Of a DNA stretch of 64,000 nucleotides, positions 9,011 through 59,589 are shown in pieces; the stretch's first letter is position 1; each line of letters begins with the position of its first letter. The notes under the pieces are model-generated. The model was not told where the DNA came from. It saw nothing but the letters and a program-made list of their open reading frames with translations, and did no database searches. The stretch spans positions 62,001 through 126,000 of the forward strand of contig CATKHK010000080.1 of NCBI GenBank assembly GCA_949751835.1. Direction: 5' to 3'. The position numbers were made by a program, and so were the translations under genes. This stretch comes from Blepharisma japonicum. Lineage: Eukaryota; Ciliophora; Heterotrichea; Heterotrichida; Blepharismidae.

Positions 9011-12000
9011 ATGTCTGCTACCAAAAAGGAGTATTTATGCCAAGTTACAATTATCGAAGCAAGAGATTTGGCTGGGATAAATAGTGAAGGCTCTTGTGAC
9101 CCATTTATAAGAGTTACTTGTGGCAATGCTGGCTCTCAAGCTACAACAGCAAATGAAGATAACACCAATCCTTGCTGAAATCAGTCGTTTACGTTTTCCA
9201 AATTAATGCTAACAGACATGGAGCTGGAGACGTGGGAACTAAAAATCGAGTGTTTGAATCACAATCAATTTCTCAAAAATTCGCTTGTTGGATCTTTTTC
9301 ATTTGGCTTAGCAACTCTACATAGAAACTCAAATCATGAGTTTTATGGAATGTGAATCACGCTTTTGCATCCAGACCATGGATCAAGTCCTAGAGGCTAT
9401 ATACTTATGAACTGTTTTATTGTGGGGCCTGAAGATATCCCTCCCGCACATGCAATAGGGGAACATATGGGATTAGAAGAAGATGCAGAAGAAAGTGACG
9501 ACGACATGTTAGATGAACTTTTAACCCCAGAACAAAGGAAATTAAAAAAATTAAAAGCACAAAGCGTCAAAATTGTAGGCGCTCCTATGATTGCAAGAAA
9601 AAGCTATCAGCTTTCAGTGAATATTTATAAAGCTGAACATTTTGTAAACCATCCAAATGGATTTGTTAGTGCAAGGACATGTGGGTTTGTGGACAAAACT
9701 CATACAATGAAAGAAAGTAATGACCCGATTTGAAATGTAAAATTATCATTCCCCGCGTATAAACCAATTTTAAATGACAGAATTACTGTAAGAGTATGGG
9801 ATCAAAGGCCTTTATCAAGAGATATCATGATTGCAACAATCCCAGAAATCCCCAGCGATCACGATTTTTTCAACATCACCAATTTACTTAGCAGAGGTGG
9901 AGTAATGCCTTGCAGATGGATTCCCTTATATGGGCAGAATCTCGAAGAAAGCTCTATTTGGGATGGTGTCAAAGAAATGGTCGGCTCAAAGAAAAAAAGT
10001 TATATTGGGACTTGCTATAAAGGAAGACTTCTCTTATCACTTACAGTCTCCCCTAATGATGACCCAGAAACTGGCGCTTCAAGAGCTGCTCCCTATAGAG
10101 AGCCTATTGCAAAAATTCACTCCCTCCGAGTTATTTTATTCGAACTAAAAAACGCAAAAAATTGTGGCGATGCTGTCAGAATTCGCATTTCTATTGGCCC
10201 ATTTAGTGTTTGGTCTAAAAAAACAACCATAAGAGAAACAACTGATTCCAATACTAATGAAACTATTTATTATTTTCAATGGGGATCAGCTTATTCAGGC
10301 GAACAAATACCTGAAATTAAAGAACCGTTCCCAATTGATCCTTCCCAAGCTCCTGATATATTTTTAGATCTTTATTCAGAAGGTCTCTTGGGTGGAGAAA
10401 AAAGAATTGGGTATATAAGAAAGCCAGCTTCTGAAATTGTAGGGAGAGATTACCCATTTTGACTGCCTTTTAGGTCACTTGAAACACATTCTGAAGTAGG
10501 CTCAGATTCCCCTGGACTTGTATTAGTATCAATGAGCTATCAAGTTGATGAAGGATCAGGACAGAAGTCAGGAGTTGTTAAAAGTAAGCCAAGAAAAGCT
10601 GATAGGTGGCTTTGCTGAAATGTGTATGGAGGCCTTGATATGGCACCTTCTTTAGAGGATGAAGATACAAATCTTGCATTAAAAATTTACTGCGGAGACT
10701 CCGTTATCAAATTGCCTGATGAAATTGCAGAACAATGCTCTCATACAAAATACCCAATTTGGAAATGGTCAGGTGTAAAGCCTTTGCAGCTTCATGAAGA
10801 CTTGCATTTTGAACAAAACTTGCGCTTAGAAGTTTATAATAAATCAACCATTATGAAATGGTTTGATTCAACTGATGAAATAGGGCAGTTTTCAGTCCCT
10901 CTTTCTGTGTGTGACAGCCAATGGAGTCAGCCTCATTTTTTCCACATAATTAATGCTAGAGAACAAGGGGTGTCTCAAGGAAGAGTCCTAGCAGAATTTT
11001 TTATTGCAAAATCAAGCATTGACAGCTCTAATAACCCATGTAAACGCGAATCAGAAGCCACAATGAAATGTGATATTGAGTTCGCAATTATTGGGATCAG
11101 AAATTTAGTCCCAAAATATGAAAAGCCTGAAATAACAGTTTCAATACCTGGTTACACTATGGATAAAGACGTAAAAGCAGAAATCGTAGAAGATACAGTT
11201 AAAAATAAAGACAAATCAAACCCGAATTTTTTGACGATAATTAAATTCAAAAATGTCACTTTGCCAGTGACGCCTATTTACCTCCCTGCTTTATATATAA
11301 GGATTAAGGATACTGCATTTTTGTCCTGAAATGAGTGCTATACTTTTATTCCACTTATGCCTTATGCTCATTGGATCACAGATGAAGCTATAAAAAGAGA
11401 GGCGCTTGAGCTTTATAATAGAAATTTCACAGTAAAAGAGCTAATAGAGCAAGTCCCGCTAAGATCAGTCCCACAAGAAAAATTAAGAAGGACAGGAGAT
11501 GAGTCTTACACTGATTATGCAGAAGATTGTATCCCTGATGACTCTGCTAATGAAGAAGAAAACATCAGTCAAGGCAGGGAATTGGACATGTCTGATATTT
11601 TTGACCCAAAAAATTCCCGCTTAATCAAAAAAATCCAGTTTGATAAAGTAGAAGTTGACGAAGAAATCGAAATCAGAGTAAGAGAAGAAAAAGAAAAAGA
11701 GCTTAACAGTGAACTAGAAATTTTAAGAGCGCAAGCCAAAAAGCAAACTGAGAAAAAAGGTGAAATAAAAGAAACACTGAAGCTGGAAATAAGAAAAAAA
11801 GAAAGAGAGCTCGATGTGGTAAAAGAAGGAGTTATGACAGAAAAAAGGTTCATGAAAAAAGATGAAGTAATTGATGAAGATGGTTTTCAATATAATAGGC
11901 CAATATTTAAGCAAGGGCCTTATGAAGAAGCATTAGAGCTTCCATATGAACGATACTTTTTGTTCAGAAAAACTAAAAATACAGAAAAATTATCAGCGTT

Positions 12001-13492
12001 TAGGGTAGGTGAGCCTACTGGCGCTATATTAAAGTCAAGTGTATATATAAGGATTCTCGAGGATGGAAAGCCATATGATCCAAACAACGATTTTCCTGAT
12101 CCTGATACTTTTAAAAATGATTTTAATTTCTTTCATCCAGGATTTAGAGGAACTGAAACACTTATGTCAATTTTCAACGAAAGCAATTTTGATGTAAGAG
12201 TTTATATATTAAGAGGTCTCTCTTTAAGTGCTGTTGACAATGCGCCTGATTGGATTGCATTTTCTGGAGGCTTAGATGCATTATCCAGCGCTAATAGTTA
12301 CCCACAGCTGATAATCGGGGACAATAGAGATGTTGATGGAAAATATATCAATGATACAAAGCCTGAAGTGAAAAATTTAAACCCAGAGTTTTTTAGGACT
12401 TATGAGATGGAAGCAGAAATTCCATCTGATTGGAAACTCCAAATAAGTATTCTCAATTTAAACGAGTATGGGTTCGATAACTTAATTGGGTCTACTATAA
12501 TTGACTTAGAAGACAGATACTTTGGAGATCCTTATACTAGTAAAGTCCTTATGTTGAAAAATTTAAAAAATCATTGCGATAGAGAAATTGAAGAAACTCA
12601 AGAACCAAAGCTAAGAGAATGGCTTGTAAAGATAAGGAAAAATGTTAAAAAAGATAGAGCCAGATTAGATGTAAGCCAGCACGTTGCCCCTGTAGAATAC
12701 AGAGCTTTAGAAAACAGAGGAAAAAAAACTGCGCAAGGCATGCTAGAATTGTTTTTAGAAGTCTTAGACAGCCAAGAAGCTAAGCTAATCCCAGTCTCAA
12801 AAATCGCAAAACCAATCCCAGAAGAATACGAACTTCGTTTTATCGTCTACAAATGTGAAGGAATTCCTAGAAGGCCTGATAAAGAAGTTACAGATATATT
12901 TTTCAGAGTCGCCTTTGACTGTGCAGGCTGGATTGAGGAATCCGTCCAAAAAGAAACAGACGCTCACATGGGCTCTAGTGACGGCCATGGAGTTTTTAAC
13001 TGGAGAATGAAATTCCATTTCCAGCTCCCTTGCACATTTGCAAGACTTCGTGTAAATGCATATGATTTTTCTACTTTTGGGGACGATCAAGTGGTTTCTG
13101 AAGTAATTTTGGATTTATCAAGATATTTTAGCAGGGTGCTGAAAGAAGGAAAATTAAGTGTAGAAGAGTCTTGGACTGATTTACATTTGCCGAATAAGCC
13201 TGGGACAAATGGTGGGAAGCTGATGTTTTCTTTTTATATTTTAAGCTTGGCTGAAGCAAATCAAAGACCAGTGGGTGAAGCACAAGATGAGCCGAATAGA
13301 GATCCTGAGCTAGAAACACCAGAAGAAGGGAGAGGAGTCAGTGATTTCTTAAAGGGAACTGCTTTTGATGTGTCTGGCTGGTCATTGTGGGATTTTGGGA
13401 TTTTGAAAAAAATATTGGCTGTTTTGTCGCTGGGAGGTATGGCGATTGTCTTGTTTATTTACCCAGGTTTCTTGACTGGAGGTGCTAAATAA
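9011..13492 (+). CDS. Ferlin-type multi-C2 membrane protein
   Basis: 1493 aa, TAA stop, with six or more in-frame TGA read as Trp and no intron seen. The first C2 domain begins at once (residues 6-110, CQVTIIEARDLAGINSEG, DPFIRVTCG). Further C2-like units start near 195 (YQLSVNIYKAEHF), 375 (HSLRVILFELKNAKN), 690 (CDIEFAIIGIRNLVP), 1060 (DVRVYILRGLSLSAVD) and 1273 (ELRFIVYKCEGIPRR). The last carries the ferlin-typical TDAHMG..DG.G.FNWR.KF. A Lys/Glu-rich helical linker lies at about 850-950. One transmembrane helix (about 1464-1487) with a very short tail makes it a tail-anchored protein facing the cytosol. Ferlins act in Ca-linked membrane fusion and repair. Its 3' end and downstream flank are duplicated near 23.2-24.0 kb. 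Confidence 0.9.
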
Positions 13493-13926: not shown

Positions 13927-16900
13927 TTAACTATCATCTATAGAAGATGGCTCTATTTTCGTAGATTTTTTCACCTTATTAAAATCATCTGCGCTTACTC
14001 TTGCTTTATTTCCTATTTGAAAAGCAAATCTAAAGAGCGTGCTTGTATCTTTTACTTTTTTTCTGAACAACAAACTTGGATATTTTTTCTTCTGTACATA
14101 CAATCCAATAGCCACAATAATTAATCATCCAGAAATTACTAAAGCAATTCAAGGAAAACCATTGTCTCCTAACAAAATGCTGAGTGTTGCAAAAAACCCA
14201 AGCCATATAACTCCAATGATACTCACTCCTTGTCACCAACTGAATCTTGGATAATTGTATGGTTTATCTCTGAATATAAAAATAACATATATAAGTAGCA
14301 CAATCAAAAATATAAAGCCATGAGTCGCAGCTTGAGCTCTTTTAACAGTTTTATTGATAACAATTAAGACTATTTGAGTTATCGTTTTTACCATAAGAAA
14401 TAAAGGCAACGTTTTTACGTGTAAAACTGCTTGAAATTCTTGCCAAAGGGGCCTACAAAAGACAGCTAAAGGCTCATAAATTAAAATCGCAATCCCAGAT
14501 AAAATCGCATAAATTATATGGTCTCCTTTTCAGCAAAACTGATAACAATCTTTTGCAAGAAAAGAATCAGTGAAATTGTTTCCTATCGACTCATCGCATA
14601 CGAATACATCTAAGAGTATAGAAACAAAGGGAATAAAGCATAAGTTCCCCAAAATAGGCATTACTATGTCTGCAAGCTGGCCTAAAAATCTAAAAATAAA
14701 TATATGGTTATATTTTTCATCGAGCCTATAAAAAACACTTATGCATAAAATTATTCAGGCAGCTGATAGCCCTAATACTGCATCACAAACAATCCAGAAT
14801 ACTCCATTAGTCAATTTCACAAAATTTCCAAGGTTCAATGAAAGAGCTTCCCCAACTTCTGATAGAAGACTGTTAATCGGAGCTAAATCTGGGCCAATAG
14901 CGGCATATTGAAAAAATTCAATAGCTATGGTTGCTCCTACTATGAAATCTTCTAGTGAAATTTCATTTTTTTCTTTTAAATCTTCTATTTTCACATTCCA
15001 TCATTTTTTTCATATATAAAAAGTTATAACACTCGTAGATAATGCTATAAAAAAACAAATCCCAAATATAAGATATCGGCCTTTATAAAAAGTTTCGATT
15101 TTTGAATCTGGAAACGGACACTTTAAGTTTTGGTTTCTTAAGTCAGGCGGCTTTATCATAGTATTTTTATTGTCATAAAAAAAAGGGTTAGCTATAGTTA
15201 AATATTGTGTGCTATAAGGGCTGCCAAGCCCTATATGGTAAACTGTAAGAGTATTGTTTATTAATCTATTGCAGTCTATGCTCAAAGAATCCAGCTCTCT
15301 ATCATTGTTGCCTTTAGAAATAGCTAGCTTTCCTGTACACCCTGTAATTTTGATATTTCTGATAGTTTGATTGAGCTTATATCCATCAGTAAAATCTTGG
15401 CCTCTAGTTATCATAAAATCTATAGAATTTGCTATTAAATACGTAGAATCGAAATAATTGCACGCAGGATCGCTGGGAATCACCTGATAATCAGCTTTGA
15501 GGTTATTATATATCTTTTCTCCAAATTCTCCAGTCCAAACTGGCATTTGAAATACCATCATAGGGCATCCAATTTCAATTCTTTTGTACCTAAACGTATC
15601 ATTTTTTGCTCCTATATCAGTAAGCGCAGCAGAAACAATCGAAAAAAACATTAAGTCGCCATTCCGAGCTCCCAAATCATAAAATTTTTCTAATACTGCG
15701 CCTAATAGATCGTCAAGCATAAATACAGCTATAAGCCTTACATTTGAGTCTAAAAGTTCTTGTAGAGTATATGAGTAATTCCCTATTGTATCTCTTGTTA
15801 GATAAGAAGGTATTACTTCTGTTTTTATGATTTTAATCCCCGCTTCATCACTTATTGCTTGCTGAAATGAAAGGTATGCAGAAATTCCCCAAGTATCGTT
15901 TTGATATAAGACTACTAAACTTCGCCAACCTAAAGCTTTAAGTAAACTTGGTGTTTGAGATGATATGCCTATGGTAGAAATTTGAACCCTTGAAAATCAT
16001 GGATAAGTTGAAGTTGAGCTTAATGCTGAAGATGATGCAATAGCGCTAACAATAGGAACAGAAATATTCAAACGTTTAAATGTTTGAAGACTTGCTAATA
16101 CAACTGATGATGGATATGAAGATACAGCAGCCAAACCAAACTTGTCAATGTCCTTTAAAAAGCAATTATAACCATAAGTCTGGTCATAAAATGTAGCTCC
16201 GCAATCATAAAAAAATAAGTCCATTTGGAAATTTTCAAGAATTCCTAAGCCTCCATTAATCATTTTAATAGCTAATGAAGCTCCTCTTGCGTACCTCGGA
16301 ACATTAAGAGCAGGTGCTTGGCCATAATTGGTGGATCCAGCATTAATACTGATATGCAGAGTTTTCTTGGCAGATATTGGAGAAGTTGTTGTATTCCCTG
16401 GAAAAACGATTTTGCTAATAACTGAAATGCTGGAATTATTAAAATTACCAACTATGGTTTTTGAATTATTGTGATAATTCACTAATGAAAAAGAATTTTG
16501 ACAAAAGCGATAAGAGCATGATTTTTCCAAGATATTTTTTATTTGATAAGAGTTATCAGCAGTCAACGAGCCCTCAATTAAATAAATAATATTTAATATT
16601 GCAGTACTAATGTAAACTTCTTTAGAAGTAGCGTTTTCTTGATTTTTTTCAGAAATAATAAGACTCCCGTCAATTATGGGATTAAAGTAGCTTTCTTTGC
16701 CTAAAATGACTCCGTTACCAATATTAGCAAGATTTTTATCAATAAGAGCTTGCTGAATAGAGGAACTGTATGCATAATCTCCAAAAATATAATACATTGT
16801 AGAGCCAAGTGGCACAGCTATTCTACCGACAATGTCATCTATATTGGAGTTTGGCTCAATTATAACATTTTTAAAGCCATTCGAAAAATCCAACAAATAG

Positions 16901-17349
16901 TCTTTAATAAAGGTATTTTGATTTGAATTGAATATTATTCCTTGGCTCCAATTAAAATAGCCAAATAAAATGGTAAGTGCTTCCAAATAATTAATTCTCG
17001 AAGATGATCCAGAAAATGTTCAATCTGTTAAATAACTTAGGTTGTCTTCAATAAGCAAATGGATAACTTCATTGTTTTTGCACAATTGTGATAAAAAATA
17101 ATGATTAGTTCTATCATCGACTAAGTCAATCACAATTTTTGGATTTTCTAATAAATCAAAAAGCGACAATAATTCCTCAGAATTTGTCGCTGAGTAAATA
17201 AAATGAGAGGATAGCTCTTGATTTTGCTTGAGAAAATTAAAAGCTTCTCTTGAGGCTTCATCTGCGTAAAAAAAAATTAAATTTAAAGCTTCAGTAAAGG
17301 AATTGAATAGCATCACTCCAAATCACAGGTAAATAATCATTGTATTCAT
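13927..17349 (-). CDS. Receptor-like protein, copy A: two flytrap-like regions plus polytopic membrane domain
   Basis: 1140 aa, TAA stop. About ten in-frame TGA are read as Trp, and every step of the frame was checked to be free of TAA/TAG. An N-terminal signal peptide (about 1-22) is followed by a degenerate periplasmic-binding-type region (about 23-335), then a clearer ANF-receptor-like region (about 345-750). The latter contains RGASLAIKMINGG, SSSALSSTSTYPWFSRVQ and LLKALGW.SLVVLYQ. A strongly hydrophobic part with roughly eight or nine helices runs from about 757 to 1080, and a basic cytosolic tail of about 60 residues ends the protein. This layout recalls class C GPCRs, but the membrane part is not clearly their 7TM domain. 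Ligand unknown; a plasma-membrane or alveolar sensor role is inference. Confidence 0.82.
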
Positions 17350-17955
17350 ATTTTTTATAATTACATTATTTAGAAAAATATTTTAGAATAATAAAGGATG
17401 TGAATTAAATATAACCGCTGATATTAAAATTCATTTTGGTTGATACTTTTTTTTGGTTCAATTTAATTTTGCAACTTAATCTATATTTCAGTATATTAGG
17501 CAACATCATGTGATTTTATTTATTGATTTAAAAAATGTCAACTTCTCTTTTATAAGCATTTAATGACTTTCTTTATTTCATAATTTTTATTGAACTAAGC
17601 TAAAGATTTAAATATGAATCAATTTTGAAATTTTATTATTATTGTGATAAAATTATTTTGACGAATTAAATAGCTCAGAAAACTCATAAGGACCATATAG
17701 ATAAAATTAAGGACAGTAAAACTATTGCAATATCTACACACTTGATCGAAACTAATTTTCAAGAACTATAATAAATGTCCAGCTTGACCAGAAATTGCAA
17801 AAAGAAGGCAAAATATTGAATAATGGAAGCCTCAAAGAACTTCTGAGTTTTCGTTTGAGAAACTGCGTTTAGCAAGCAGATATATCTTAAGAACCGTTAA
17901 TTGTTCATACTGAGGTATTAGATAGTAGATAAATGCAAAGCGGTGAGCAGAACTA
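17350..17955 (-). repeat. 5' flank of receptor copy A (repeat unit)
   Basis: Non-coding upstream region of copy A. It is similar over most of its length to 18276-18860 (upstream of the broken copy). About 250 nt of it are similar to 28985-29215 (upstream of copy C), including a shared stretch like GTGATTTTATTTATTGATTT. Parts near the start codon and GGAAGCCTC are also found upstream of copy B. Promoter elements probably lie here, but none can be named. Confidence 0.7.
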
Positions 17956-17965
17956 AAATTCTTTT

Positions 17966-18275
17966 AGATTATCTTCAACTAGTAAATAGATGACTTCATT
18001 ATTTTCGCATAATTGTGATAAAAATTAATGATTAGTTCTATCATCAACTACGTCAATCAGCATTCTTGGGTCTACTAATAAATCAAAAAGTGGCAATAAT
18101 ACCTCAGAATTTGTCGTTAAGTATAGATAATGAAAAGATAGTGTGTGATTCCGCAGAGAAAATTAAAAGCTGTTCTTGGTGCTTGATATTCTGAAAAAGA
18201 ATCAAATTTAAAAGCTTCAGTAAAGTAATTGGACAGCATCACTCCAAATCATAGGTAAGTAATCATAGCATTCAT
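17966..18275 (-). pseudogene. Broken N-terminal copy of the receptor gene
   Basis: The start matches the intact genes (MNAMITYLWFGVML, with TGA as Trp). Frame is then lost after FNFL, with stops. Recognisable pieces follow (LFDLLVDP, DVVDDRTNH, then an in-frame TAA where the others have Tyr, then FLSQLCENNEVIYLLVEDNL). Only about the first 105 codons are present; the rest of the gene is missing. Its own 5' flank is retained on the right. Confidence 0.9.
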
Positions 18276-18860
18276 ATTTTATAAATAGTTTATTTATTAA
18301 AATGCTTTAAAATAAGAAGGATACAAATAAAAATAATCTTCTTTCTTAAAATTCATTTTTGGTTGAATAATTTTTTTTATTACAATTTAATTTTACGGCT
18401 CAAGCAATAATTCATCATATTATCAATCATCATGGATTTTATTATTGATTTAAAAATGTCAGCTTCTCATTTGCAAGTATTTTCTAATTTTTTTTATTAA
18501 ATAATTTTATTTAACTAAGCTAAAGACATAAATATAAAACAATTTTGATTTTATTATAATTGTCATAAAAATGTATTAAATATTTAAATTTCTCAGAAAT
18601 TCATATTAATGGGAAAATATTAAGATATTAAAATTTTTGCAATTTTCACTATATCAGAACTTGTTTTCAAGATCTATATATCCCTAGCTTTATCAGAAAT
18701 TGCAAAATGTACATAGCGAAGCCTCAAGAATTTTTTATTTTATTTTGATAAAATTGTGTATATCAAAACAATAAAATCTTAAAAAACGGGGGTTTTTCTA
18801 CTGGAAGATTTAAATAGTAGATTAATGGAAAGCTGAACATTAGCATTAACATTAATTAGT
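18276..18860 (-). repeat. 5' flank of the broken receptor copy (repeat unit)
   Basis: Diverged copy of 17350-17955. Shared landmarks include ATTGATTTAAAAA, AACTAAGCTAAAGA near 18514, and a GAAGCCTCAAGAA block near 18721. Confidence 0.7.
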
Positions 18861-19396
18861 TATAAGTCTTCTCCGTACTAAATCACCTGCTCGAGCTTAA
18901 CCCATTCTTCCGTACCCTCCCTCCCTCTAAATATCTAGCACTTGAACTTGATCTAAATTGTGCTTTTGCTTCGGGTATTCGGATTTCACCGTTCTCCTTC
19001 TAGTTCTCAGGCTAGCAACTTGTGTCCATCAGATATGCTAAAAGTCTCCACAATGGATAATATTTAGATACTAGCTTAATGCAATATAAATCTTCTTTTA
19101 TTAAAAATCGATGAAGGTTTATTATGTTAAACTTAATAATCCTGTGATAATATTTGCTTTATCTAGGTATCTTTTTCTTTATGAACAACAAAAAAAAGCT
19201 TCCGTCAACCTTTAAATCTGCATTCAAGTAGATATTCAAAAAATTTATTTTTTTGCTAAAGGACGTTGAAATGATAATTATATTGATAAAAAAATTATAA
19301 TTAGGTTTGAAAGTAATAATTTTTCTCATTTTGTGCTATTTATTAAAATCCTAATCTTCCTCAGAATCTTAATTAATAATCATAAATATCCATTTT
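18861..19396. other. Intergenic, 3' side of receptor copy B
   Basis: Left part (about 18870-19080) is richer in G and C than its surroundings and contains runs such as CCCTCCCTCCC, but has no open frame. The right part is AT-rich. The 3' flank seen next to copies A and C is not recognisable here, so this side of copy B has a different history. Origin not identified. Confidence 0.4.
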
Positions 19397-22300
19397 TTAA
19401 CTATCATTTATAGATGGCTCTATTTTTGTAGACTTTTTCACCTTATTAAAATCGTCAGCACTTACTTTCGAGTTATTTCCGAATTGAAAAGCAAATCTAA
19501 ATAGCGTGTTTGTATCTTTTACTTTTTTTCTGTACAGCAAACTTGGATATTTTTTCTTTTGTACATAAAATCCAATAGCCACAATAATTAATCATCCAGA
19601 AATTACTAAAGCAATTCAAGGAAAATTATTATCACTTAACAAAATGCTGATTGTTGCAAAAAAACCAAGCCACATCACTCCAATGATACTCATTCCTTGC
19701 CACCAACTGAATCTTGGATAATTGTAAGGTTTATCTTTGAATATAAAAATAACATATATAAGTAGAACAAGCAAAAATAAAAAGCCATGAGTCGCAGCTT
19801 GAGCCCTTTTAACAGTTTTATTGATAACAATTAAAGTTATTTGAGTTATCGTTTTTACCATAAGAAATAAAGGCAATGTCTTTACATGTAAAACTGTCTG
19901 AAATTCCTGCCAGAGAGGCCTGCAAATGACAGCTAAAGGTTCATAAATTAAAATCGCAATTCCAGATAAAATCGCATAAATTATATGATCTCCTTTTCAG
20001 CAAAACTGATAGCAATCTTTTGCAAGAAAAGAATCAGTGAAATTGTTTCCTATCGACTCATCGCATACAAATACATCTAATAGTACAGAAACAAAAGGAA
20101 TAAAGCATAAGTTTCCCAAAATTGGCATTACTATGTCTGCAAGCTGGCCTAAAAATCTAAAAATAAATATATAGTTATATTTTTCATCAAGCCTATAAAA
20201 AACACTTATGCATAAAATTATTCAAGCTGCTGATAGCCCTAATACTGCATTACAAATCACTCAGAATACTCCATTAGTCAACCTAACAAATTTCCCAGGA
20301 TTCAATGAAAGAGCCTCTCCAAGGTCTGATAAAAGGCTATTAATTGGTTCTAAATCAGGGCCAATAGCAGCATATTGAAAAAATTCAATAGCAATAGTAG
20401 CTCCTACTATAAAATCTTCTAATGAAATTTCATGTTTTTCTTTTAAATCTTCCATTTTCACATTCCATCATTTTTTTCATATATAAAAAGTTATAACACT
20501 TGTAGATAATGCTATAAAAAAACAAATTCCAAATATAAGGTATCGGCCTTTATAAAAAGTTTGGATTTTTGAATCTGGGAAAGGACACTTTAAGTTTTGG
20601 TTTCTTAAGTCAGGCGGTTTTATTGTAGTGTTTTTATTGTCGTAAAAAAAAGGATTAGCTATAGTTAAATATTGTGTGCTATAAGGGCTGCCAAGCCCTA
20701 TATGGTAAACTGTAAGAGTATTGTTTATTAATCTATTACTGTCTATGCTCAAAGAATCCAGCTCTCTGTCATTGTTGCCTTTAGAAATGGCTATCTTTCC
20801 AGTGCACCCTGTAATTTTGATATTTCTGATAGTTTTATTTAGTTTATATCCATCAGTAAAATCTTGGCCTCTATTTATCATAAAATCTATAGAATTTGCT
20901 ATTAAATACGTAGAATCGAAATAATTGCACGAAGGATCAGTGGGAATCACCTGATAATCAGCTTTGAGGTTATTATATATCTTTTCTCCAACTTCTCCCA
21001 TCCAAACTGGCATTTGAAATACCATCATAGGGCATCCAATTTCAATTCTTTTGTACCTAAACGTGTCATTTTTTGCTCCTATATCAATAAGCGCAGCAGA
21101 AACTATAGAAAAAATCATCAAGTCGCCATTCCGAGCTCCCAAATCATAAAATTTTTCTAATACTACGCCTAATAAATCGTCAAGCATAAATACAACTATA
21201 AGCCTTACATTTGAGTCTAAAATTTTTTGCAGAATATACGAGTAATTCCCTATTGTATCTCTTGTTAGATAAGCAGGTATTGTTTCTGTTTTTACGATTT
21301 TAATCCCTGCTTCATCACTTATTGCTTGTTGAAATGAAAGGTATGCAGAAATTCCCCAAGTTTCATTTTGATATAAGACTATTAAACTTCGTCAACCTAA
21401 AGCTTTAAGTAAACTTGGTGTTTGAGATGATATACCTAAGGTAGAAATTTGAACCCTAGAAAATCATGGATAGTTTGAAGTTGAGCTTAATGCTGAAGAT
21501 GATGCAATAGCGCTAACGATAGGAACAGAAATATTTAAACTTTTAAATGTTTGAAGACTTGCTAATACAACTCCTGAAGGATATGAAGATACAGAAGCCA
21601 AGCCAAATTTGTCAATATCTTTTAAAAAACAATTGTAGCCATAAATCGGATCATAAAACGTAGCTCCGCAATCATAAACATATAAGTCCATTTGGAAATT
21701 TTCAAGAATTCCTAAGTCTCCATTAATCATTTTGATAGCCAATGAAGCTCCTCTAGCATATATTGGAACATTAAGAGCTGGTGCTTGGCCATAATTGGTG
21801 GATCCTGCATTAATACTGATATGTAGAGTTTTCTTGGTAGATATAGGAGAAATTGTTGTATTCCCTGGGAAAATGATTTTTTGCATAATTGAGATGCTGG
21901 AATTATTAAAATTTCCAACAATAGTTTTTGAGTTATTGTAATAATTCACTAATGAAAAAGAATTTTGACAAAAGCGGTAAAAACATGAGTTTTCTAAGAT
22001 ATTTTTTATCTGATAAGAGTTATCAACAGCCTGAGAATTTTCTATCAAATAAATAATATTTAATATTGCAGTACTAATATAAATTTCTTTAGAAGTCGTA
22101 TTTTCTTGATTTTTTTCAGAAATAATAAGACTACCGTCAATTATGGAATCAAAGTAACTTTCTTTGCCTAAAATAATTCCGTTGCCAATATTAGCAAGTT
22201 TTTTATCAATAAGAGCTTGCTGAATAGAAAAGCTATAAGCTTCATCACCAAAAATATAATACATCGTAGAGCCAAGTGGTACAGCTATTCTTCCAATAAT

Positions 22301-22816
22301 GTCATTTATATTTGAATTCGGCTCTATTATGACATTTTTAAATCCATTTGAAAAATCCCACAAATAGTCTTTAATAAAGGTATTTTGGTTTGAATTGAAT
22401 ATGATCCCTTGATTCCAATTAAAATAGCCAAATAAAATGGTAAGTGCTTCCAAATAATTAATTCTAGAAGAAGACCCAGAAAAAGATCAATCTGTTAAAT
22501 AGCTCAGATTGTCTTCAACAAGTAAATGGATAACTTCATTGCTTTCGCACAATTTTGATAAAAAATAATGATTAGTTCTATCATCAACTAAGTCAACCAC
22601 AATTTTTGGGTCTTCTAATAAATCAAAAAGCGACAATAATTCCTCCGAATTCGTCGCTGAGTATAAATAATGAGAAGATAACGCATGATTTCCCTTGAGA
22701 AAATTAAAAGCTTCTCTTGAAACTTCATTTGCGTAAAAAAGAATTAAATTTAAAGCTTCAGCATAGGTAATGGATAGTATCATTCCAAACCACAGGTAGC
22801 CAAGCATTGCATTCAT
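19397..22816 (-). CDS. Receptor-like protein, copy B: two flytrap-like regions plus polytopic membrane domain
   Basis: 1139 aa, TAA stop, all TGA read as Trp. Same layout as copy A and very similar along its whole length. Signal peptide (MNAMLGYLWFGMILSITYA), first flytrap-like region, second ANF-receptor-like region with RGASLAIKMINGD and SSSALSSTSNYPWFSRVQ, first membrane helix YLIFGICFFIALSTSVITFY, then a further seven or eight hydrophobic segments. Several conserved Cys and many N-x-S/T sites lie in the outer part, as expected for an exported protein. At several conserved Trp positions this copy has TGG where copy A has TGA, for example 19700-19702 against 14233-14235. Differences from A and C are mostly substitutions, so it appears functional. 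Confidence 0.82.
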
Positions 22817-23155
22817 ATTTTTATATTCACATTATTTGGCAAAATAATTTAGAATAAGAGAGAAAAAATTTTAAAGGGATTTTTTAGGCCCATTAAGAGC
22901 TTTTTTAAAATTCTTGCAATGACTGAAAAAATTTTTCTTCTTTTTGATAGTGTTATCAAAACGCTGTCACCTATTGGTGACTTCATAATCCTTTGAAGAT
23001 CCCTGTTCCTTCTAAATCTAAAGATCTAGCGGCTGCAGGTCCTGCTTCGGAATTAATGGAAGCCTCGAAAAACTTTCTGATTTTTATTAAGATAAATTTG
23101 TTTAAAAAAAAGGAATAACTTACTGAGCGTTTCCTTAGCATTTCCAGTGTTAAAT
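22817..23155. other. 5' flank of receptor copy B, with two adjacent hairpins
   Basis: Close to the start codon the sequence matches the other receptor flanks, and a GGAAGCCTC block near 23057 also matches. The part in between (about 22862-23050) does not, and looks inserted or replaced. It contains two perfect inverted repeats one after the other, listed separately. Confidence 0.5.
22942..22981. repeat. Twin perfect hairpins
   Basis: TTTTGATA-GTGT-TATCAAAA (8-bp stem, 22942-22961) is followed 4 nt later by GTCACC-TATT-GGTGAC (6-bp stem, 22966-22981). Both have 4-nt loops. Function unknown. Confidence 0.6.
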
Positions 23156-23535
23156 TAGCAATTTATCCATTTTCTGCCAGCTGGAGGCAAAAATGAAAAC
23201 TCGAAACCCAGTTTGCAAGGCTTGGCTTTATGATTAGAAGTGCTCCGATTAACTAAGAAACTTTTCTGGAATTACTAGGAAAACTCTTTCGAGATCCTTC
23301 CCAAATTTTCCCATAAGGAAAAATCTGCCACAACATTGTGATTCCACCTACGCCAACCTGATAGACAATTGGCTGTTCCTCAAAGATCCCTATCCATTAA
23401 TAGCCAGCTATAGGAGTAAAGAGAGTTGCCGATTAGCCACACCTTTTAATGTACATGGGATAGAAACGCCAGAGTAAGGAAAGCTGTTAGTGATTTCTTA
23501 AAGAGAACTGCTTTTGAAATGCCTGACTTCTAGGC
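23156..23535 (+). pseudogene. Ferlin 3'-end pseudogene fragment
   Basis: A degraded copy of the last part of the ferlin gene (about 12980-13492), in the same orientation. The clearest match is TGATTTCTTAAAGAGAACTG with its continuation, against ferlin 13340-13376. The ferlin stop context GCTAAATAAT...CTAATATTTTAATAAA follows after an internal deletion of roughly 100 nt. Further left, pieces such as GTTTGCAAGGCTT and ACCTGATAGACAATTGG line up in order with the last C2 region. Frame is lost and there are stops throughout. Confidence 0.75.
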
Positions 23536-23985
23536 TAAATAATTCTAATATTTTAATAAAATATGAAACTGTTGAAATAAATAAGCTATGCTATTATAGT
23601 AATTTATATTAAGAAATCTATAGAGATAACTCCTTAGCCACTTATAGCAGCAATAATTTATTACATTAAATCTAAATAAACACCATGGCTAGCATATCAA
23701 CTCGATTGCTTTTTTTATTGCGATGCTCTAAAAATTTGACAAAATCATTTATTAGCAAGGATTCATTGAAATAGCCCTATTTTTGCAGCCTCTGCAGAAT
23801 CTAAATTCCATTTATACATATTAATTAAAAAATACTTGGAATTTAAGCTTTAAGATTTGCTTATATATTAAAAATAGAGATTATCTTTAAATATTTATAT
23901 CTGCCAATTAATATGGTATGATTCACAATATCTCAAAAAAAATCCAATTATATTTTCAGGTTATAATAAAACTGTGTAAGTAGAA
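23536..23985 (+). repeat. Second copy of the ferlin/receptor intergenic spacer
   Basis: Matches 13493-13926 in order, with TTATTAGCAAGGATTCAT shared exactly near 23751. In the original block this spacer leads into a receptor gene; here it leads into about 170 nt of AT-rich DNA and then the kelch-like gene. Confidence 0.75.
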
Positions 23986-24157
23986 AAGCATAAAAACTTT
24001 AGGTGAAGAGATCAAGGCAAATGCCCATGCTTATAATGCATTTAAGAGAGTAAACCAAGGATGCAAAAATTTCTGTATTTTCAAAAACATATTATGTCAT
24101 TTTTACTAATCCAAACTAAATATTTAAAAACATTAGAAATTTTTTTAGATAATCTTC

Positions 24158-25156
24158 TTATCATTTAAAAGCTATCTCATCCAATCTCTTTTCATTCAAA
24201 TTAAACTTGAATTTTTGAACGCGACCAAAGATTAGCCCGATGTATATTTCTCCTTTATTATATATGCAATACGGCTGATCAGAATAATAAGCGAGTGTTG
24301 ATTCTGCTATTCTTGTCCAATTCGTGTCACTTCCAATTTCGCATTCATATATTGATCCATGGTCGGATTCAATCAAATACAGTCTCTCTGCATTTATCAG
24401 GATCTTTCTTTTACAAGATGCAAACTCATAAGGAATTATTGTGAAAGAGTCGCTCTCAATTGAATATCGCAAAAGATTTATATTAGCCCATCCAGAAATC
24501 AAAATCTTTTCATTAAATATTATACTTTCGCAGCTAAAATTAGCTTCCGGCATTGGAGTTAATTGAATTCATCCTTTTCGAACCAAATCAAATTTATACG
24601 ATAGAGTTAAAGGATCTTCGTTTAGTCCTCCAAAGCAATAGACGCTGTTGTTGAAATAGATACATGATGATAGACAGCATGAAGTTCCAGATGGCAACAG
24701 TTCGACTCCACCATTCACATCAATTAGCATTGTAATCCCAAAAATTGGTTCAGATTTACCATAACAGAATAGCTTGCCATCCGGAAGTAGAGTTAGACAG
24801 GTGTATTTATCTAGTGGTTCTGGAGTCTGCAAGATTTTGATTTCTTCAGTTTCAGTCTCAGTGTTGTAAATATATAAATTAGTCGTGTTGTCATCATGCT
24901 TTATAATATGATAAAGTGAAGTCATTTGCTGATAAGCATTAAGATAATCTTGGAAAGCTTGGATTAGTTGTGAATCATGGGAATTAGAATTGGCTTGATA
25001 TGCTGAACAAGTTGCTCTGAAATTCATCTCTAATTCTCGATTGTTTGGGCTGCTTAAGATCGCAGCTGTTTTAATTCTTAAGGCCTCTATATCTTCACGA
25101 TTGGGATGATCCTTAACTTCAAAAGCGCTTGCTAATTTTTCAGGTAAAGGCTCCAT
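24158..25156 (-). CDS. Kelch-like repeat protein without B-box
   Basis: 332 aa. TGA at 24569-24571 and 24161-24163 are Trp; TAA at 24158-24160. The N-terminal 100 residues are helical. From about 105 on there are kelch-type blades: FCYGKSEPIFGITMLID, SCIYFNNSVYCFGGLNED, WIQLTPMPEANFSCESIIF, ILISGWANINLLRYS, LYLIESDHGSIYECEI. The same series of motifs occurs in the B-box/kelch genes at 41.5 and 56.8 kb, so all belong to one family. Kelch propellers usually bind protein partners. This copy lacks the zinc-binding N-terminus of its relatives. It lies inside the receptor array, between a duplicated ferlin flank and receptor copy C. Confidence 0.75.
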
Positions 25157-25535
25157 CGTTATTATGGTTATCTATCGAAATTATGGTTCTAAATAATTTG
25201 CATAACTTTAAAATTAGTTTATGCAATGTCCTATGCTATTTTCTTCCATTTATTTTAGCGAACAGATGGAATTATTCTATTATAAAATAAAAGAAATATG
25301 CATAGATTAGCAATAAAATAATAAAATATATTATACTTATTTTTAATTGCAGCTTTAATAAACGCTAAGAAAAGTAAAGCTTAATGCTGTTCTAATTATG
25401 AAAAATTTATTTTCGTGATTTGTGATGCAAAATATTAGACGATTTAAGAAAAATGGCTAGGCTATAATTTTCTAGCCGATATATGAATTATTCATAGAAA
25501 TATAATATTATTAATTAGACTTAAGTGATTATTAA
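25157..25535. other. Intergenic between kelch-like gene and receptor copy C
   Basis: AT-rich, no open frame. The last 50 nt (about 25485-25535) match the 3' flank of receptor copy A (13878-13930). Confidence 0.55.
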
Positions 25536-28500
25536 CTAATATGGCTCTATCTTCGTAGACTTCTTCACCTTATTAAAATCTTCAGCGGTTACTTTTGATT
25601 TATTTCCGAATTGAAAAGCAAATCTAAAGAGCGTGCTTGTATCTTTTATTTGTTTTCTGAACAGCAAACTTGGATATTTTTTCTTCTGTACATAAAATCC
25701 AATAATCGAAATAATAAGTCAGCCAGAAATTACTAAAGCAATTCAAGGAAAATTATTGCCACTTAATAAAATGCTAATTGTTGCCAAAAGGCCAAGCCAT
25801 ATAACTCCAATTATACTCACTCCTTGCCACCAACTGAATCTTGGATAATTGTATGGTTTATCTTTGAATATAAAAATAACATATATAAATAGCACAATCA
25901 AAAATATAAAGCCATGAGTCGCTGCTTGAGCTCTTTTAACAGTTTTATTGATAACAATTAAGATTATTTGAGTTATCGTTTTTACCATAAGAAATAAAGG
26001 CAAAGTTTTTACATGCAAAACTGGCTGAAATTCTTGCCAAAGAGGCCTGCAAAAGACAGCTAAAGGTTCATAAATTAAAATCGCAATCCCAGATAAAATC
26101 GCATAAATTATATGGTTTCCTTTCCAGCAAAACTGATAGCAATCTTTTTCAAGAAAAGAATCAGTAAAATTGTTTCCTATTGACTCATCACATACAAATA
26201 CATCTAATAATATAGAAACAAAAGGAATAAAGCATAAGTTCCCCAAAATCGGCATTACTATGTCTGCAAGTTGGCCTACAAATCTAAAAATAAATATATG
26301 GTTATATTTTTCATCAAGCCTATAAAAAACACTTATACATAATATTATCCAGGCTGCCGATAGCCCTAATACTGCATCACAAATAACCCAGAATACTCCA
26401 TTCGTCAATTTCACAAAATTTCCGAGGTTCAATGAAAGAGCCTCCGCAACCTCTGATAAAAGATTGCTAATTTGCTTTAAATCGGGGCCAATCGCAGCAT
26501 ATTGAAAAAATTCAATAGCAATAGTAGCTCCAACTATGAAATCTTCGAATGAAAGCTCATATCTGTTTTTTAAATCTTCTATTTTCACATTCCATCATTT
26601 TTTTCATATATAAAAAGTTATAACACTTGTAGATAATGCTATAAAAAAACAAATTCCAAATATAAGATATCGTCCTTTATAAAAAGTTTGGATTTTTGAA
26701 TCTGGAAACGGACACTTTAAGTTTTGGTTTCTTAAGTCAGGTGGCTTTATCGTAGTATTTTTATTGTCATAAAAAAAAGGATTAGCTATAGTTAAATATT
26801 GCGTGCTATAAGGGTTGCCTAACCCTATATGGTAATTTGTAAGAGCATTGCTTATTAATCTATTGCTATCAATGCTCAAAGCATCCAGTTCTCTATCATT
26901 GCTACCTTTAGAAATGGCTAGCTTTCCAGTGCATCCTGTAATTTTGATATTTCTTATAGTTTGATTGAGTTTATATCCATCAGTAAAATCTTGGCCTCTA
27001 TTTATCATAAAATCTATAGAATTTGCTATTAAAAATGCAGAATCAAAATAATTACACGAAAGATCGGTTGGAATCACCTGATAATCAGATTTGAGGTTAT
27101 TATATATCTTTTCTCCAAATTCTCCCATCCAAACGGGCATTTGAAATACCATCATAGGGCATCCAATTTCAATTCTTTTGTATCTATATGTGTCATTTTT
27201 TGCTCCTATATCAGTAAGTGCAGCAGAAACAATTGTAAAAAAAATCAAGTCACCATTCCGAGCTCCCAAATCATAAAATTGTTCTAATACTGCTCCTAAT
27301 AATTCGTTGTGCATAAATACAGCTACGAGCCTTACATTTGAGTCCAAAATTCCTTGCAAAATATATGAGTAATTACCAATTGTATCTCTTGTTAGATAAG
27401 GAGGAATTATTTCTGTTTTTACGATTTTAACCCCTGCTTCTTCTTCTATTGCTTTTTGAAATGATAGGTATGCAGAAATTCCCCAGGTTTCGTTTTGATA
27501 TAAGACTGCTAAACTCCGCCAGCCTAAAGCTTTAAATAAATTTGGTGTTTGAGATGATAACCCTAAGGTAGATACTTGGACCCTTGAAAATCATGGATAG
27601 GTTGAAGTTGAGCTTAATGCTGAAGATGATGCAACAGCGCTAACAATAGGAACAGAAGTATTCAAACGTTTAAACGTTTGAAGACTTGCTATAACAACTC
27701 CTGATGGATATGAAGATATAGCAGCCAAGCCAAATTTATCAATATCTTTTAAAAAACAATTGTAGCCATAAGTTGGATCATAAAATGTGGCTCCGCAATC
27801 ATAAACAAATAAGCTCATTTGGAAATTTTCAAGAATTCCTAAGCCTCCATTAATCATTTTGATAGCCAATGAAGCTCCTCTTGCATATTTTGGAACAGTA
27901 GGAGCTGGCGCTTGGCCATAATTGGTGGCTCCAGCATTAATACTGATTTGTAGAGTTTTCTTGGTAGATATAGGAGAAATTGTTGTATTCCCTGGGAAAA
28001 TGATTTTGCGAATAAATGAAATACTGGAAGTATTAAAATTTCCAACAATAGTTTTAGAGTTATTGTAATAATTCACTAATGAAAACGAATTTTGACAAAA
28101 GCGGTAAAAACATGAGTTTTCTAAGATATTTTTTATTTGATAAGAGTTGTCAATATCCTTCGAGCTGTCTATTAAATAAAGAATATTTAATATTGCAGTA
28201 CTAATGTAAATTTCTTTAGAAGTAGTATTTTCTTGATTTTTTTCAGAAATAATAAGACTCCCGTCAATTATGGGATTAAAGTAACTTTCTTTGCCTAAAA
28301 TGATTCCGTTGCCAACATTAGCAAGATTTTTATCAATAAGAGCTTGCTGAATAGATGGGCTATATGCTTCCTCTCCAAAAATATAATACATTGTAGAACC
28401 AAGTGGTACAGCTATTCTGCCGACTATGTCATCTATATTGGAATTTGGCTCTATTATGACATTATTAAACTCATTTGAAAAATCAAACAAATAATCTTTA

Positions 28501-28943
28501 ATAAAGGCATTTTGGTTTGAATTAAATATAATTCCTTGGCTCCAATTAAAATAGCCGAATAAAATGGTAAGTGATTCCAAATAATTAATTCTCGAAGAAG
28601 ACCAAGAAAAAGTTCAATCTGTTAAATAGCTAAGATTATCTTCAACAAGTAAATGGATAACTTCATTGTTTTTGCACAGTTGTGATAAAAAATAATGATT
28701 AGTTCTATCATCAACTAAGTCAATCACAATTTTTGGATTTTCTAATAAATCCAAATGCGACAATAATTCCTCAAAATTAGTGGCTGAGTATATATAATGA
28801 GAAGATAGCGCTTGATTTCTTTGGAGAAAATTAAAAGCTTCTCTTGAAGCTTCATCCGCATGAAAAAGGATTAAATTTAAAGCTTCGGTAAAGGTAATGG
28901 ATAGTATCACTACAAACCACAGGTAAGGAAGCATTGAATTCAT
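25536..28943 (-). CDS. Receptor-like protein, copy C: two flytrap-like regions plus polytopic membrane domain
   Basis: 1135 aa, TAG stop, TGA read as Trp. Same layout as copies A and B. The start at 28943 (MNSMLPYLWFVVILS) corresponds to the other copies; an in-frame ATG at 28982 would add 13 residues and is less likely. The membrane part is the most complete uninterrupted frame of the three (25743-26588), because it has TGG where A and B have TGA. The C-terminal tail is shorter than in A and B (ends KSTKIEPY). Hydrophobic segments at about 755-1080 suggest eight or nine membrane passes. Divergence from A and B is larger than between A and B, so C split off earlier (inference from reading, not computed). 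Confidence 0.82.
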
Positions 28944-46932: not shown

Positions 46933-49682
46933 CTATTTATATTTTCTGAACGTCATAAAATCGGCTCGGTTCCCAAGAAAAGATGCAGGCGACACTCGCT
47001 TAATTCGATTATAATCTAGATACTTAACGTGCCTTCGTGAGTTATTTAAATCGTCTTTGATTATCAAACTTCTATAATTCCTCCTGGAGGACTGTTTATC
47101 AACGCCTCCACCAGTAGAGGTTATTTTTACAAATTCTGTCGGAGATAATGGTTTTTCGCTTTTAGGTGGCTTTGGCTGGGAGTTTTTAACAATTTCAGGT
47201 AATTTTTCTTCGTTTCTAGCTGGGGAGTTATTTGCTGAGGTATTCAAATAGCTAGTCGCTTTTAAGAGCTTTTTATCTCACGATTGAACTATAATAAAAG
47301 TTACTGAGATTATAAATATTTTCAAGATGGTCTTCAAGCACTTCTTCAGTTGTAGGCTGAGGTTTTTCGAATTGCATTTGCCTTAATGGAATATATTTTT
47401 CAAGTCTTGATGTTGACGGTATTATCGGTCTATGCTTAGGCGGTGGTACTGAAGACGCCTGTATTCTTTTCACTGAATTTTTCAAAACTTTTTTGTCAGT
47501 TTTTTTCTTTTTGGCTAAGACACTTACTTCAGGAAGCTCAAATCTGGAATCATCAGCTTCAGACATAGAGGATTCGGAGTCATTATCACTAATCTCATCA
47601 ATGTTTCATAGCTGCTCCAAATCCATAAGAGATTCATTGTTTTGTATGGTTTTTAATGCTTCTTCTAAGTGAAATTCTTCTTCTTCTTCATTTATATTTT
47701 CTTCTTGCTCTTCTCTAATTTCACTATCACTGCTGTCTTTTTCTAAAATTTCTGCATTTTCTGTATTTTCTTTATTTTTTTTGATGCTAAAATTAAATGG
47801 AGCAGCCCTTCTATATTGTTTTAAAATTTCCATAAGCTTTTTTTTGAACAAATATGGGTTACAGAAAATAAGACAGACTTTGCATAAATCAGAGCCTAAA
47901 TTTTCCAAATGACATCGCTCCATATGAGCATCTCCTGAGGCTTCTCCATCATAAGGGTCTCTATTTTGTAATGATGCCTGATGGCTTGGCCCGTAAAAAG
48001 AGCATTCGAGTGTATAGCTATTTAATAAATTAATTTCTCTAAAAATAACAATTCTGGCTGTCGACTCTTTACATTTTTCAAGCCTGAATTTTGTGTCTTT
48101 AAATGAAAAAATTTTATTTTTTTCTGCCAGAAGTAACGGAATCATTTTTATAAGCACATTATTTCTCCTATCTTCTATTTCTTTACCAATTGAGCAGCAA
48201 GAATACATGAAAACATTTTTCTTCATAGAATGCCCATGGATATCACAATACATAGCAAGCTCCATGTCTTCTGAGAACATTTTTATCAATCTTTTTGTAT
48301 AATAAATTGTAGGGTGAAGATGCCTGTTTGGGCGAATTCAGCGTCTATTTAAGTCAACTCCTAATAAAGAGCATCGATAATTCCCATATATAACTCCGTC
48401 AGGGTTTAACATAGGTATAATTTTAAATACAAAATTTTTCCTCAAAATTTTAGCTTCTTTAGAATTTCCTAATAAAAATTCAATTACTCCTTTCATTGCG
48501 TACGATGAGTTGCTTTCCCCTGGATGGACTCTGGCTGATATCACAATCCCTTTTTTCTTGCTATGCTCAGATTCTATCTTCATAGATCATACCTTTTTTT
48601 ATCATTTTATGCCTCATACTTTTAAGTCTCTGCAGCTTCCTTCATGCAGCACTTTTTTCAAGTTTTTGAAGCTCAATTTCTCATGATTCATAGGTGTTTA
48701 CTGACTCAGTTATTGTAAGAACTGGACAATCATTTCCAGCTAAAGTTTGACAAAGGGTATTTATCCTTAGAATTTCTTCATAATTTTGTATAGAGTTTAA
48801 AAGGCTTTTTAAATCAGTATAGGTGTATGGATAACAATGTGCAAAATAAACAAGATCATTTTCGTACTCAAAATTGTATATAAATGATAATGTGTAAGAA
48901 TGGCTTCGCTTCCTGTCTTCTTTAAAGGTTAAATTGTTCCTGAAATACGAAATATTTTCACCAGCTCTATGCCATTGTATGCCTGATTTTTTATATTTTT
49001 CCGTTGAATTTACAAGTGGCTTCATTCCATTATTATATAAAGAGTCATACTTGCTCAAGTTTACTATATTTAAAGTAACTCTGTGGTTCCTCTTATAGCT
49101 TTTTATTGAAAAATAAAACCATTGTGTGTGTCCTTTCGTCCCATAATCATACTCCAAATACAAGTTATACTCATTTTCACTGATTTTTATCGCTTTCCAT
49201 AGATTTCCACTTTCAAATTTCGAATCAAAAATCAGTACGTTTTCTGTAGGCGCCACCAAGGTGTATTCACATTTCACATACTTTTGAGGAGTAAAGGCAG
49301 GGAGGCTTTTAAACATATTCTTATCTAGTTATCAATTACCATACTCTTCAGCGTTTTCAATGTCTTTTAGGATTGCTGGAGGAGTCATTCTAGGAGGAAG
49401 TGGGTTATACTGTGTGGAATCGTCAAAGCGTCTTGAATGAGAATCATATACAACGCAGCCGTCACTTTCATAACGATAAAGTAACGACTTGTTGGTAGTT
49501 GGAAGATCCTGCTTGGGTTTTGTGAGATTTGGGAGAAGTTTGTTGAGGTAATTCGAAACAATTTCGTTAGTCGTAGAGTTTGAAGCGAATTTTTCTTTAG
49601 GATCATCAATTAGTAAGGATAAGCTTTGAGGGAACGGTTTCGGGCATGGAGAATCTGTACTTAAGGATTTTGTATGATTCAT
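46933..49682 (-). CDS. Cytosolic carboxypeptidase of the AGBL/CCP family (M14)
   Basis: Exons are complement 49682-49340, 49324-48593, 48573-47305 and 47288-46933 (899 aa, TAG). The CCP N-domain is recognisable ([31 protein letters not shown]). The catalytic domain has [12 protein letters not shown] (zinc His and Glu), [28 protein letters not shown] (Trp from TGA), [14 protein letters not shown] (zinc His) and [10 protein letters not shown], with the catalytic Glu expected in YTLE. These enzymes remove glutamates or terminal residues from tubulin tails and other proteins, and are common in ciliated cells. The C-terminal 270 residues are acidic then basic and probably disordered. Introns of 15 and 16 nt are clear; a third joint near 48580 needs 19 nt and is less certain. 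Confidence 0.9.
47289..47304 (-). other. 16-nt intron of the carboxypeptidase gene
   Basis: Minus-strand GTAACTTTTATTATAG. Removal moves the reading to the frame that is open through [18 protein letters not shown] to the final TAG. Confidence 0.88.
48574..48592 (-). other. Candidate 19-nt intron (or frameshift) in the carboxypeptidase gene
   Basis: The frame before (…MIKKG) and after ([20 protein letters not shown]) differ by one. The only GT..AG segment that joins them is GTATGATCTATGAAGATAG, 19 nt, longer than the other introns here. A one-base sequence error or a true frameshift cannot be excluded. Confidence 0.5.
49325..49339 (-). other. 15-nt intron of the carboxypeptidase gene
   Basis: Minus-strand GTAATTGATAACTAG with an in-frame TAA. 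Removal joins NAEEY-D to [10 protein letters not shown]. Confidence 0.9.
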
Positions 49683-58239: not shown

Positions 58240-59589
58240 TTAATAAACTTTGCCTTTAATTAACCTCTGCAACCTAGCTTTCTTTATTGGAACAAAATTG
58301 TTCGGGAGTATTCTGGTCTTTATTTTTACACATTCTACCTCAAAATCTCCTCTTTCCCTATTTATTTCTTGTGAGCGACTTTTCAGACTTCTGGATCTGA
58401 AACTCATAGATTTTAGTTTTTTACAAAACCATCTGTGCCCTACCGCTATTTCAGGAAGGATTCTATTCTCAGGATTAGGATCAGTCAACCTTTTGATTAA
58501 GTTGATAGCGTCTTTTGATATGTATTTTCATGCATGGTCATTGAAATTTATTATACACTCAGTGTTTTTTACAAGGATATCTTTTACTGACTCACTGTAA
58601 AAAGGCATTTTTCCGGATAGTAATATATACATAATGATCCCTACAGAAAACAAATCACTTTTGGTGCCATATGGTTGCCTCCTGAGGATCTCGGGAGCGA
58701 TATAGCCAGGCGTGCCACATCTGAGCTTTAGGTCTCCTGTGGCTTCTGTGGCTAATCCAAAATCAGCAAGCTTAAAGTCGTAGTCGTTTTCATAGGAATC
58801 CATAAGGATGTTTTCGAGTTTTATATCTCTATGCACAATATTTTGGGAATTTAAGTAATCTAGCACACATAAAAGCTTTTGGCTCATCTTAGCTACATCT
58901 TTCTCAGTGAAATTATCTTTCATGAGAACTCTGGTATAAAGATCTTCTCCTTTGGCATAATCTAAAACTAAATGTACATTGTCTTCATCTTCATAAATTT
59001 TATGAAGTTTTATTATATTTGGATGATTTAATTTTCTCATAATTTTTATTTCCTTTATGAGTGCTTCGTAGTTTTCTTGGTTTCCTTTGATTTCTCGCTT
59101 ATCGATAGATTTGATGGCATACTTTTTACAATCTTTTCGATATTTAGCTAGAAAAACTTTGGAGTAGGCTCCTCTTCCGAGAACCATTTCAAGCTCATAA
59201 TCATCTTCGAGATCAGTTAGAATCCCTACATATGACAGTTTTTCGAGCCATAAATCCAGCTCTTCTTTGTTTTTTACATAAAAATCTTGGCTTGCATTCT
59301 GGTGTCCAAGGCTAAAGCCATATCTAGCAATATCATCTTTCTCCTCTACAAAGGGCTCTATCAGCTTCCATTGGATATTTACAGTACTTACAGGGATTTT
59401 TGAGCCAGCTTCAAGCCTTATAAGGGCTTTATCAGACAAAATGTAAGTGTTTTCTATTAGAAAACCCGGCTTTTTAGCCTCTGATAGCTGCCCTTTGAAG
59501 ACTTCTTTGATTTCCTCATGGTTGAAAGGCGTTCAAAACTCATAAGAGCCTTGCTCAAGTTGGTTTATTGACAAGAATAGCGACTGCAT
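58240..59589 (-). CDS. PH-domain Ser/Thr protein kinase 1
   Basis: 449 aa, TAA stop. TGA at 58528-58530 joins the kinase core to its C-lobe, and a further upstream TGA (Trp 19) lies in the N-terminal part. The start at 59589 gives MQSLFLSINQLEQGSYEFW, aligning with the FW motif near the start of the two sister genes. Residues about 30-125 look like a PH domain (FKGQLSE..., IQWKLIEPF, FYVKNKEELDLWLEKL). The kinase domain begins at about 131 with GRGAYSKVF and AIK, then HRDIKLEN, DFGLA, GTPGYIAPEI and a C-lobe ending near 400; all catalytic residues are present. CAMK-like. PH domains usually target lipids or partners at membranes. Substrate unknown. Confidence 0.92.

Follow-up and report, generated by a model that had tools for sequence, protein, structure and literature searches.

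Candidate surface chemoreceptors with two flytrap-like domains form a large gene family in Blepharisma japonicum

The receptor genes of the window

The window, i.e. the whole stretch of Blepharisma japonicum DNA that was analysed (64,000 nucleotides), lies on the 209 kb contig C80. This contig starts with CCCTAACA repeats, and the available text of the Blepharisma somatic genome paper (PMC9942806) gives CCCTAACA as the telomere repeat reported for Blepharisma and UGA as a codon read as tryptophan. The window genes were read with TGA as Trp (TGA=W): under table 11 the three receptor ORFs are broken into fragments, while with TGA=W they are open from ATG to stop. The initial annotation had placed three intact paralogues here in an array; this is borne out, and its coordinates fit the open frames. 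The features are the following.

13927-17349, minus strand: receptor gene 1, 1140 aa, intronless under TGA=Trp
16345-17286, minus strand: gene 1 first (degenerate) flytrap, residues 22-335, homology through relatives
15298-16281, minus strand: gene 1 second flytrap, ANF_receptor residues 357-684, Pfam E 1.1e-23
14086-15081, minus strand: gene 1 membrane domain, residues 757-1088, with eight clear helices plus one weaker helix
about 17965-18275, minus strand: 5' relic of a fourth copy, with residues 1-104 spread over two frames (tblastn)
19397-22816, minus strand: receptor gene 2, 1139 aa, intronless
21812-22753, minus strand: gene 2 first flytrap, homology through relatives
20765-21748, minus strand: gene 2 second flytrap, ANF_receptor, Pfam E 5.6e-25
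19556-20548, minus strand: gene 2 membrane domain
25536-28943, minus strand: receptor gene 3, 1135 aa, intronless
27939-28880, minus strand: gene 3 first flytrap, homology through relatives
26901-27875, minus strand: gene 3 second flytrap, ANF_receptor, Pfam E 3.3e-23
25683-26675, minus strand: gene 3 membrane domain

Gene 3 has two candidate starts, the ATG at 28982 (1148 aa) and that at 28943, the latter matching the paralogues. The domains of genes 2 and 3 share 87-92% identity with their counterparts in gene 1. Each protein is composed of a hydrophobic start (hydropathy peaks of 1.45, 1.56 and 2.01 in genes 1, 2 and 3), the first domain, the ANF_receptor domain, a linker with a conserved CPF, the membrane helices and a short basic tail, which in most close relatives carries a FAF-FGK-like motif. 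The similarity of the fourth-copy relic (17965-18275) to the window's own upstream DNA extends to 18707. A kelch-repeat gene is found at 24158-25156, between receptor genes 2 and 3.

The two flytrap domains

The region previously described as clearly ANF-receptor-like is matched by the Pfam family ANF_receptor in all three genes, with 84.3, 88.6 and 82.7 bits for a curated cut-off of 25.4 (E 5.6e-25 to 3.3e-23). The match covers residues 357-684 in genes 1 and 2 and, when gene 3 is read from its earlier ATG, residues 370-694 of that protein. Judged from these profile matches, the second domain belongs to the ANF flytrap superfamily. The best matches of the second-flytrap profile (A2) are GLR3.4 (5.2e-27) and GABA-B1 (3.3e-21). 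In GABA-B1 the residues of the serine motifs hold the carboxylate of the ligand. Aligned to GABA-B1, gene 1 has serines at both serine-motif places, and its lobe 1 motifs resemble those of this class C receptor. Genes 2 and 3 carry SG where gene 1 has the first pair SS, and among 28 family members the two motifs are variable.

The first domain had been annotated as a degenerate binding-protein-like region, a description that holds in the sense that kinship with flytraps is detected by way of paralogues. In Pfam no direct flytrap match was seen for the first domains of the window's own three copies. Among 29 first domains of the family ANF_receptor is matched by seven at E <=0.001 (best 2.3e-17), including four of the eight from distant paralogues and one of the 19 from close relatives (1.1e-5). 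The first domains of the 19 close relatives were combined in one profile (A5) and those of the eight distant paralogues in another (A6). A5 matches A6 at 99.3% (E 2.7e-20, score 150 over 278 columns), with 30 column-shuffled controls scoring at most 19.7 and the reversed profile 15.9, and A6 matches A2 at 96.5% (E 8.5e-10, score 78), with 30 shuffled controls at most 20.2. The direct comparison of A5 with A2 gives 5.6% and a score of 28.4, the same level as shuffled controls (up to 26.4). Because A5 matches A6, A6 matches A2 and half of the A6 members match ANF_receptor themselves, the first domain is read from these profiles as a flytrap decayed in the branch of the window genes, with a homology that is reached only through its relatives. 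An AlphaFold prediction of the first domain, with the three window sequences as its only input, has a pLDDT of 31.2, a confidence too low for a fold to be read from it.

Two binding regions in series on one chain are also the layout of the iGluRs (NMDA receptors, plant GLR), and the likeness extends to the first domain. The best match of A5 alone in a PDB search is GluN1, at no better than E 0.26, while a profile that combines all 29 first domains finds the amino-terminal domain of GluN1 at 5.7e-11. The first domain ends in a PGN-P stretch, recalling the WPGG-P linker that is found in NMDA receptors. Unlike in iGluRs, the second domain is of the ANF type and not of the iGluR ligand-binding type, and Pfam detects neither the iGluR ligand-binding domain nor the iGluR pore, whether in the complete proteins of the three genes or among 28 membrane domains of the family. 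Two flytraps in tandem are likewise present in BvgS. Both EvgS and BvgS are bacterial histidine kinases with another flytrap type and a kinase output, and differ in these respects from the window family. For EvgS, the available texts of PMC5573083 and PMC8174306 describe the same tandem of two flytraps.

The membrane domain and its possible partners

In residues 757-1088 of gene 1 eight hydropathy blocks exceed the cut-off of 1.5 for helices. A ninth segment (IEFFQ, about 798-822) peaks at 1.39, below this value. Across 28 members the IEFFQ segment passes 1.5 in 11 and 1.2 in 24, and an AlphaFold model made from the three window sequences only (pLDDT 37.9, a low confidence) draws a helix at this position. 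As eight blocks pass the cut-off and the ninth peaks at 1.39, the "eight to nine" helices counted earlier are the right number, eight of them clear and one weaker. Helix 2 of the domain is weak by hydropathy. Per protein, the loops and tail assigned inside carry 18.5 lysine and arginine residues, and the parts assigned outside carry 6.0 (9.4 with the stretch before helix 1). Apart from the loop after helix 6, which is basic though assigned outside, this distribution fits a predicted arrangement of nine helices with the flytraps outside. The ectodomains of ten proteins show no clear enrichment of glycosylation sequons.

Twenty columns of the membrane domain are invariant in the 28 members, including two in predicted helix 2 (E67 and Q70, domain numbering), one in predicted helix 6 (K244) and three cysteines in one loop. 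No pore motif was recognised in the domain. No credible Pfam family was found for the 28 membrane domains: eleven families appear at E <=1, the best at 0.02 and most of them in a single member. The domain profile has one match in the PDB at E up to 10, a short bacterial protein with E 0.096. Judged from the 28 sampled members, the membrane domain matches no catalogued family.

The initial annotation had considered this domain to be unlike the class C 7TM domain and had named a significant 7tm_3 match as one of two findings that would refute it. No such match arose in the HMM search: 7tm_3 is found in none of the 28 membrane domains at E <=1, nor in the three full window proteins, although a 7tm_3 search of the genome detects three other places. 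These places (L039, L040 and L041 on C5, C25 and C81, one of the three above the cut-off) encode other proteins, whose tails look like RGS domains by eye.

It appears improbable that the window genes encode strongly diverged class C GPCRs which gained a second flytrap and extra helices and signal through G proteins. Class C receptors (GABA-B, mGlu, calcium-sensing, taste) share with them the order of an ANF-type ectodomain followed by a helix bundle, and plant GLR and class C receptors are the closest relatives of the second flytrap. To this can be added that in Tetrahymena, according to the available text of PMC3226668, the knockout of a GPCR lowers G-protein activity. The window family differs from class C in having two flytraps per chain, eight to nine hydrophobic segments instead of seven, no 7tm_3 match, and a genome without a clear G-alpha gene. 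On this last point 19 genome matches were obtained and none is a clear case: 17 belong to reading frames 153-242 aa long, as would be expected of small GTPases, and the remaining two share a 676-aa frame whose summed score passes the cut-off with the same part of the profile covered twice. Since the controls of the G-alpha search were prokaryotes, this negative result is uncalibrated.

A transporter with tethered binding domains, serving the uptake of amino acids or similar nutrients, is even harder to credit and we regard it as very improbable. A precedent is GlnPQ, in which tandem binding domains are tethered to a transporter (available text of PMC8025302), but none of the 28 membrane domains has a credible match to a transporter family in Pfam, and flytrap divergence in tandem arrays would be more usual for receptors.

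By layout the window family also resembles the fungal TRP-like/Flc proteins (PF06011), which have a signal peptide, a ligand-binding ectodomain, about nine helices and a tail inside. Kinship with this family, likely by eye, was not supported: none of the 28 members matches PF06011 at E <=1, and hhalign gives a probability of 0.4% against four close PF06011-matching proteins of the genome, which is a weak test. The genome has 14 places that match PF06011, five of them on C139. Four such loci (L066-L069, on C51, C15 and C139) encode cysteine-rich multi-helix proteins.

Family size, divergence and proposed function

The genome searched comprises 45.2 Mb in 224 contigs. The membrane domain of gene 1 has at least 112 matching places in it, and these 112 scored matches are far beyond chance. 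Three further queries add at least 20, 6 and 5 places, giving a family of at least 143 membrane-domain places on 45 contigs. Some of the places are partial or broken, and those on C143 and C77 hold TAA and TAG. Among the matches listed, the first domain lies upstream on the same strand in 106 of the 112 places, at a spacing of 937-1422 bases (median 1237) that is about the length of one flytrap, and in at least 85 of these 106 the second flytrap is also found in between (a count that used 134 of 207 ANF rows). The six places lacking an upstream first domain include two at a contig start, two with TAA/TAG stops, one partial and one diverged. A family neighbour on the same strand within 8 kb is present for 87 of the 112 places, and the largest groups are on C19 (24) and C112 (16).

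The alignments contain 28 or 29 sequences picked for spread from the at least 143 places, with L009-L038, L042-L045 and L070-L076 outside them. L055 was omitted because it and L001 are one gene, and L059 because a stop interrupts its frame; L054 is partial and contributes its first domain only, L060 and L064 are read from an inner Met, and A5 and the entropy count exclude L052, L054 and L001-L008. Scans of viral, bacterial and archaeal contigs with short peptide patterns from the membrane-domain alignment (one or two per scan), checked by tblastn, yielded no relatives.

Among the three window copies dN/dS is 0.19-0.24 for the whole gene, 0.14-0.19 for the membrane domain, 0.17-0.26 for the first flytrap and 0.22-0.30 for the second. 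Because of the whole-gene values all three copies look maintained. Values above 1 (1.16-1.74) are confined to the 21-codon signal region, and elsewhere dN/dS gives no sign of positive selection between these copies. In an alignment of 19 paralogues, column entropy averages 1.19 for the membrane domain and 1.66-1.78 for the second flytrap, and the first domain, taken in two parts, has averages of 2.21 and 1.86. Divergence of the sensor parts with conservation of the membrane part is the pattern of receptor families that have varied ligands. The earlier suggestion of selection for varied ligands is therefore supported in part: the flytraps do vary more than the membrane domain across the 19 paralogues, but the three window copies themselves are under purifying selection.

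The same pattern bears on a third alternative, a family of variable proteins for surface coat or recognition, in which the flytraps would have lost the ability to bind small ligands. Such a family could account for tandem arrays, a conserved membrane part, a variable ectodomain and a degenerate first flytrap. It would account less well for a second flytrap that is well kept under purifying selection, and several helices with invariant charged residues would exceed the needs of an anchor. We hold this alternative to be improbable.

The description of the layout as one not known before stands as far as could be followed. No description of a double-flytrap receptor family is among the literature matches listed, and by a word search "receptor" and "ligand" do not occur in the main text of PMC9942806, the paper on the somatic genome of Blepharisma. 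The double-flytrap proteins thus appear, as far as these literature matches show, to be an undescribed family of putative receptors. They join known sensor modules, in a way new to us, to a membrane domain of no catalogued family.

Taking the evidence together, we consider it probable, with moderate confidence, that the window genes belong to a very large family of flytrap surface chemoreceptors that work independently of classical G proteins and are perhaps ligand-gated channels. The flytraps would be outside the cell and the tail inside. The flytrap near the membrane would bind a small amino-acid-like ligand, and its closure would move the membrane domain. In NMDA receptors the amino-terminal domain (GluN1) pairs subunits and tunes gating; by analogy, the outer degenerate flytrap would pair chains or tune the response. 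An output that avoids G proteins is favoured because no clear G-alpha was found, and would most likely be an ion conductance through which the swimming response is altered. Of the parts of this explanation, the channel step has the least certainty; it is put forward tentatively, as a possibility short of even chances.

A bolder form of the same proposal, which we think rather unlikely, is a new eukaryotic class of ligand-gated channels in which tandem ANF flytraps drive a nine-helix pore that belongs to no known family. This class would have grown to more than 100 chemoreceptor genes, of which one or more could be the gamone 2 receptor. Small amino acid derivatives are the type of ligand that such flytraps bind. 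Gamone 2, a mating pheromone of Blepharisma, is such a derivative (PMC10892320), and the available text of that paper names no gene for its receptor. Should the membrane domain turn out to be a channel, or a signalling domain of a new kind, a very old sensor module would have a new type of output. To our knowledge little has been learnt about the receptor genes with which ciliates recognise chemicals, and the family, with its at least 143 places, provides a concrete gene set for the study of ciliate chemical sensing.

Other genes of the window include one at 9011-13492 with four C2 stretches, read as ferlin-like, a match to zinc carboxypeptidase (M14) at 47273-48583, a long protein with weak EF-hand matches at 49764-55337, and two protein kinase genes on opposite strands at 58240-59589 and 60453-61841.
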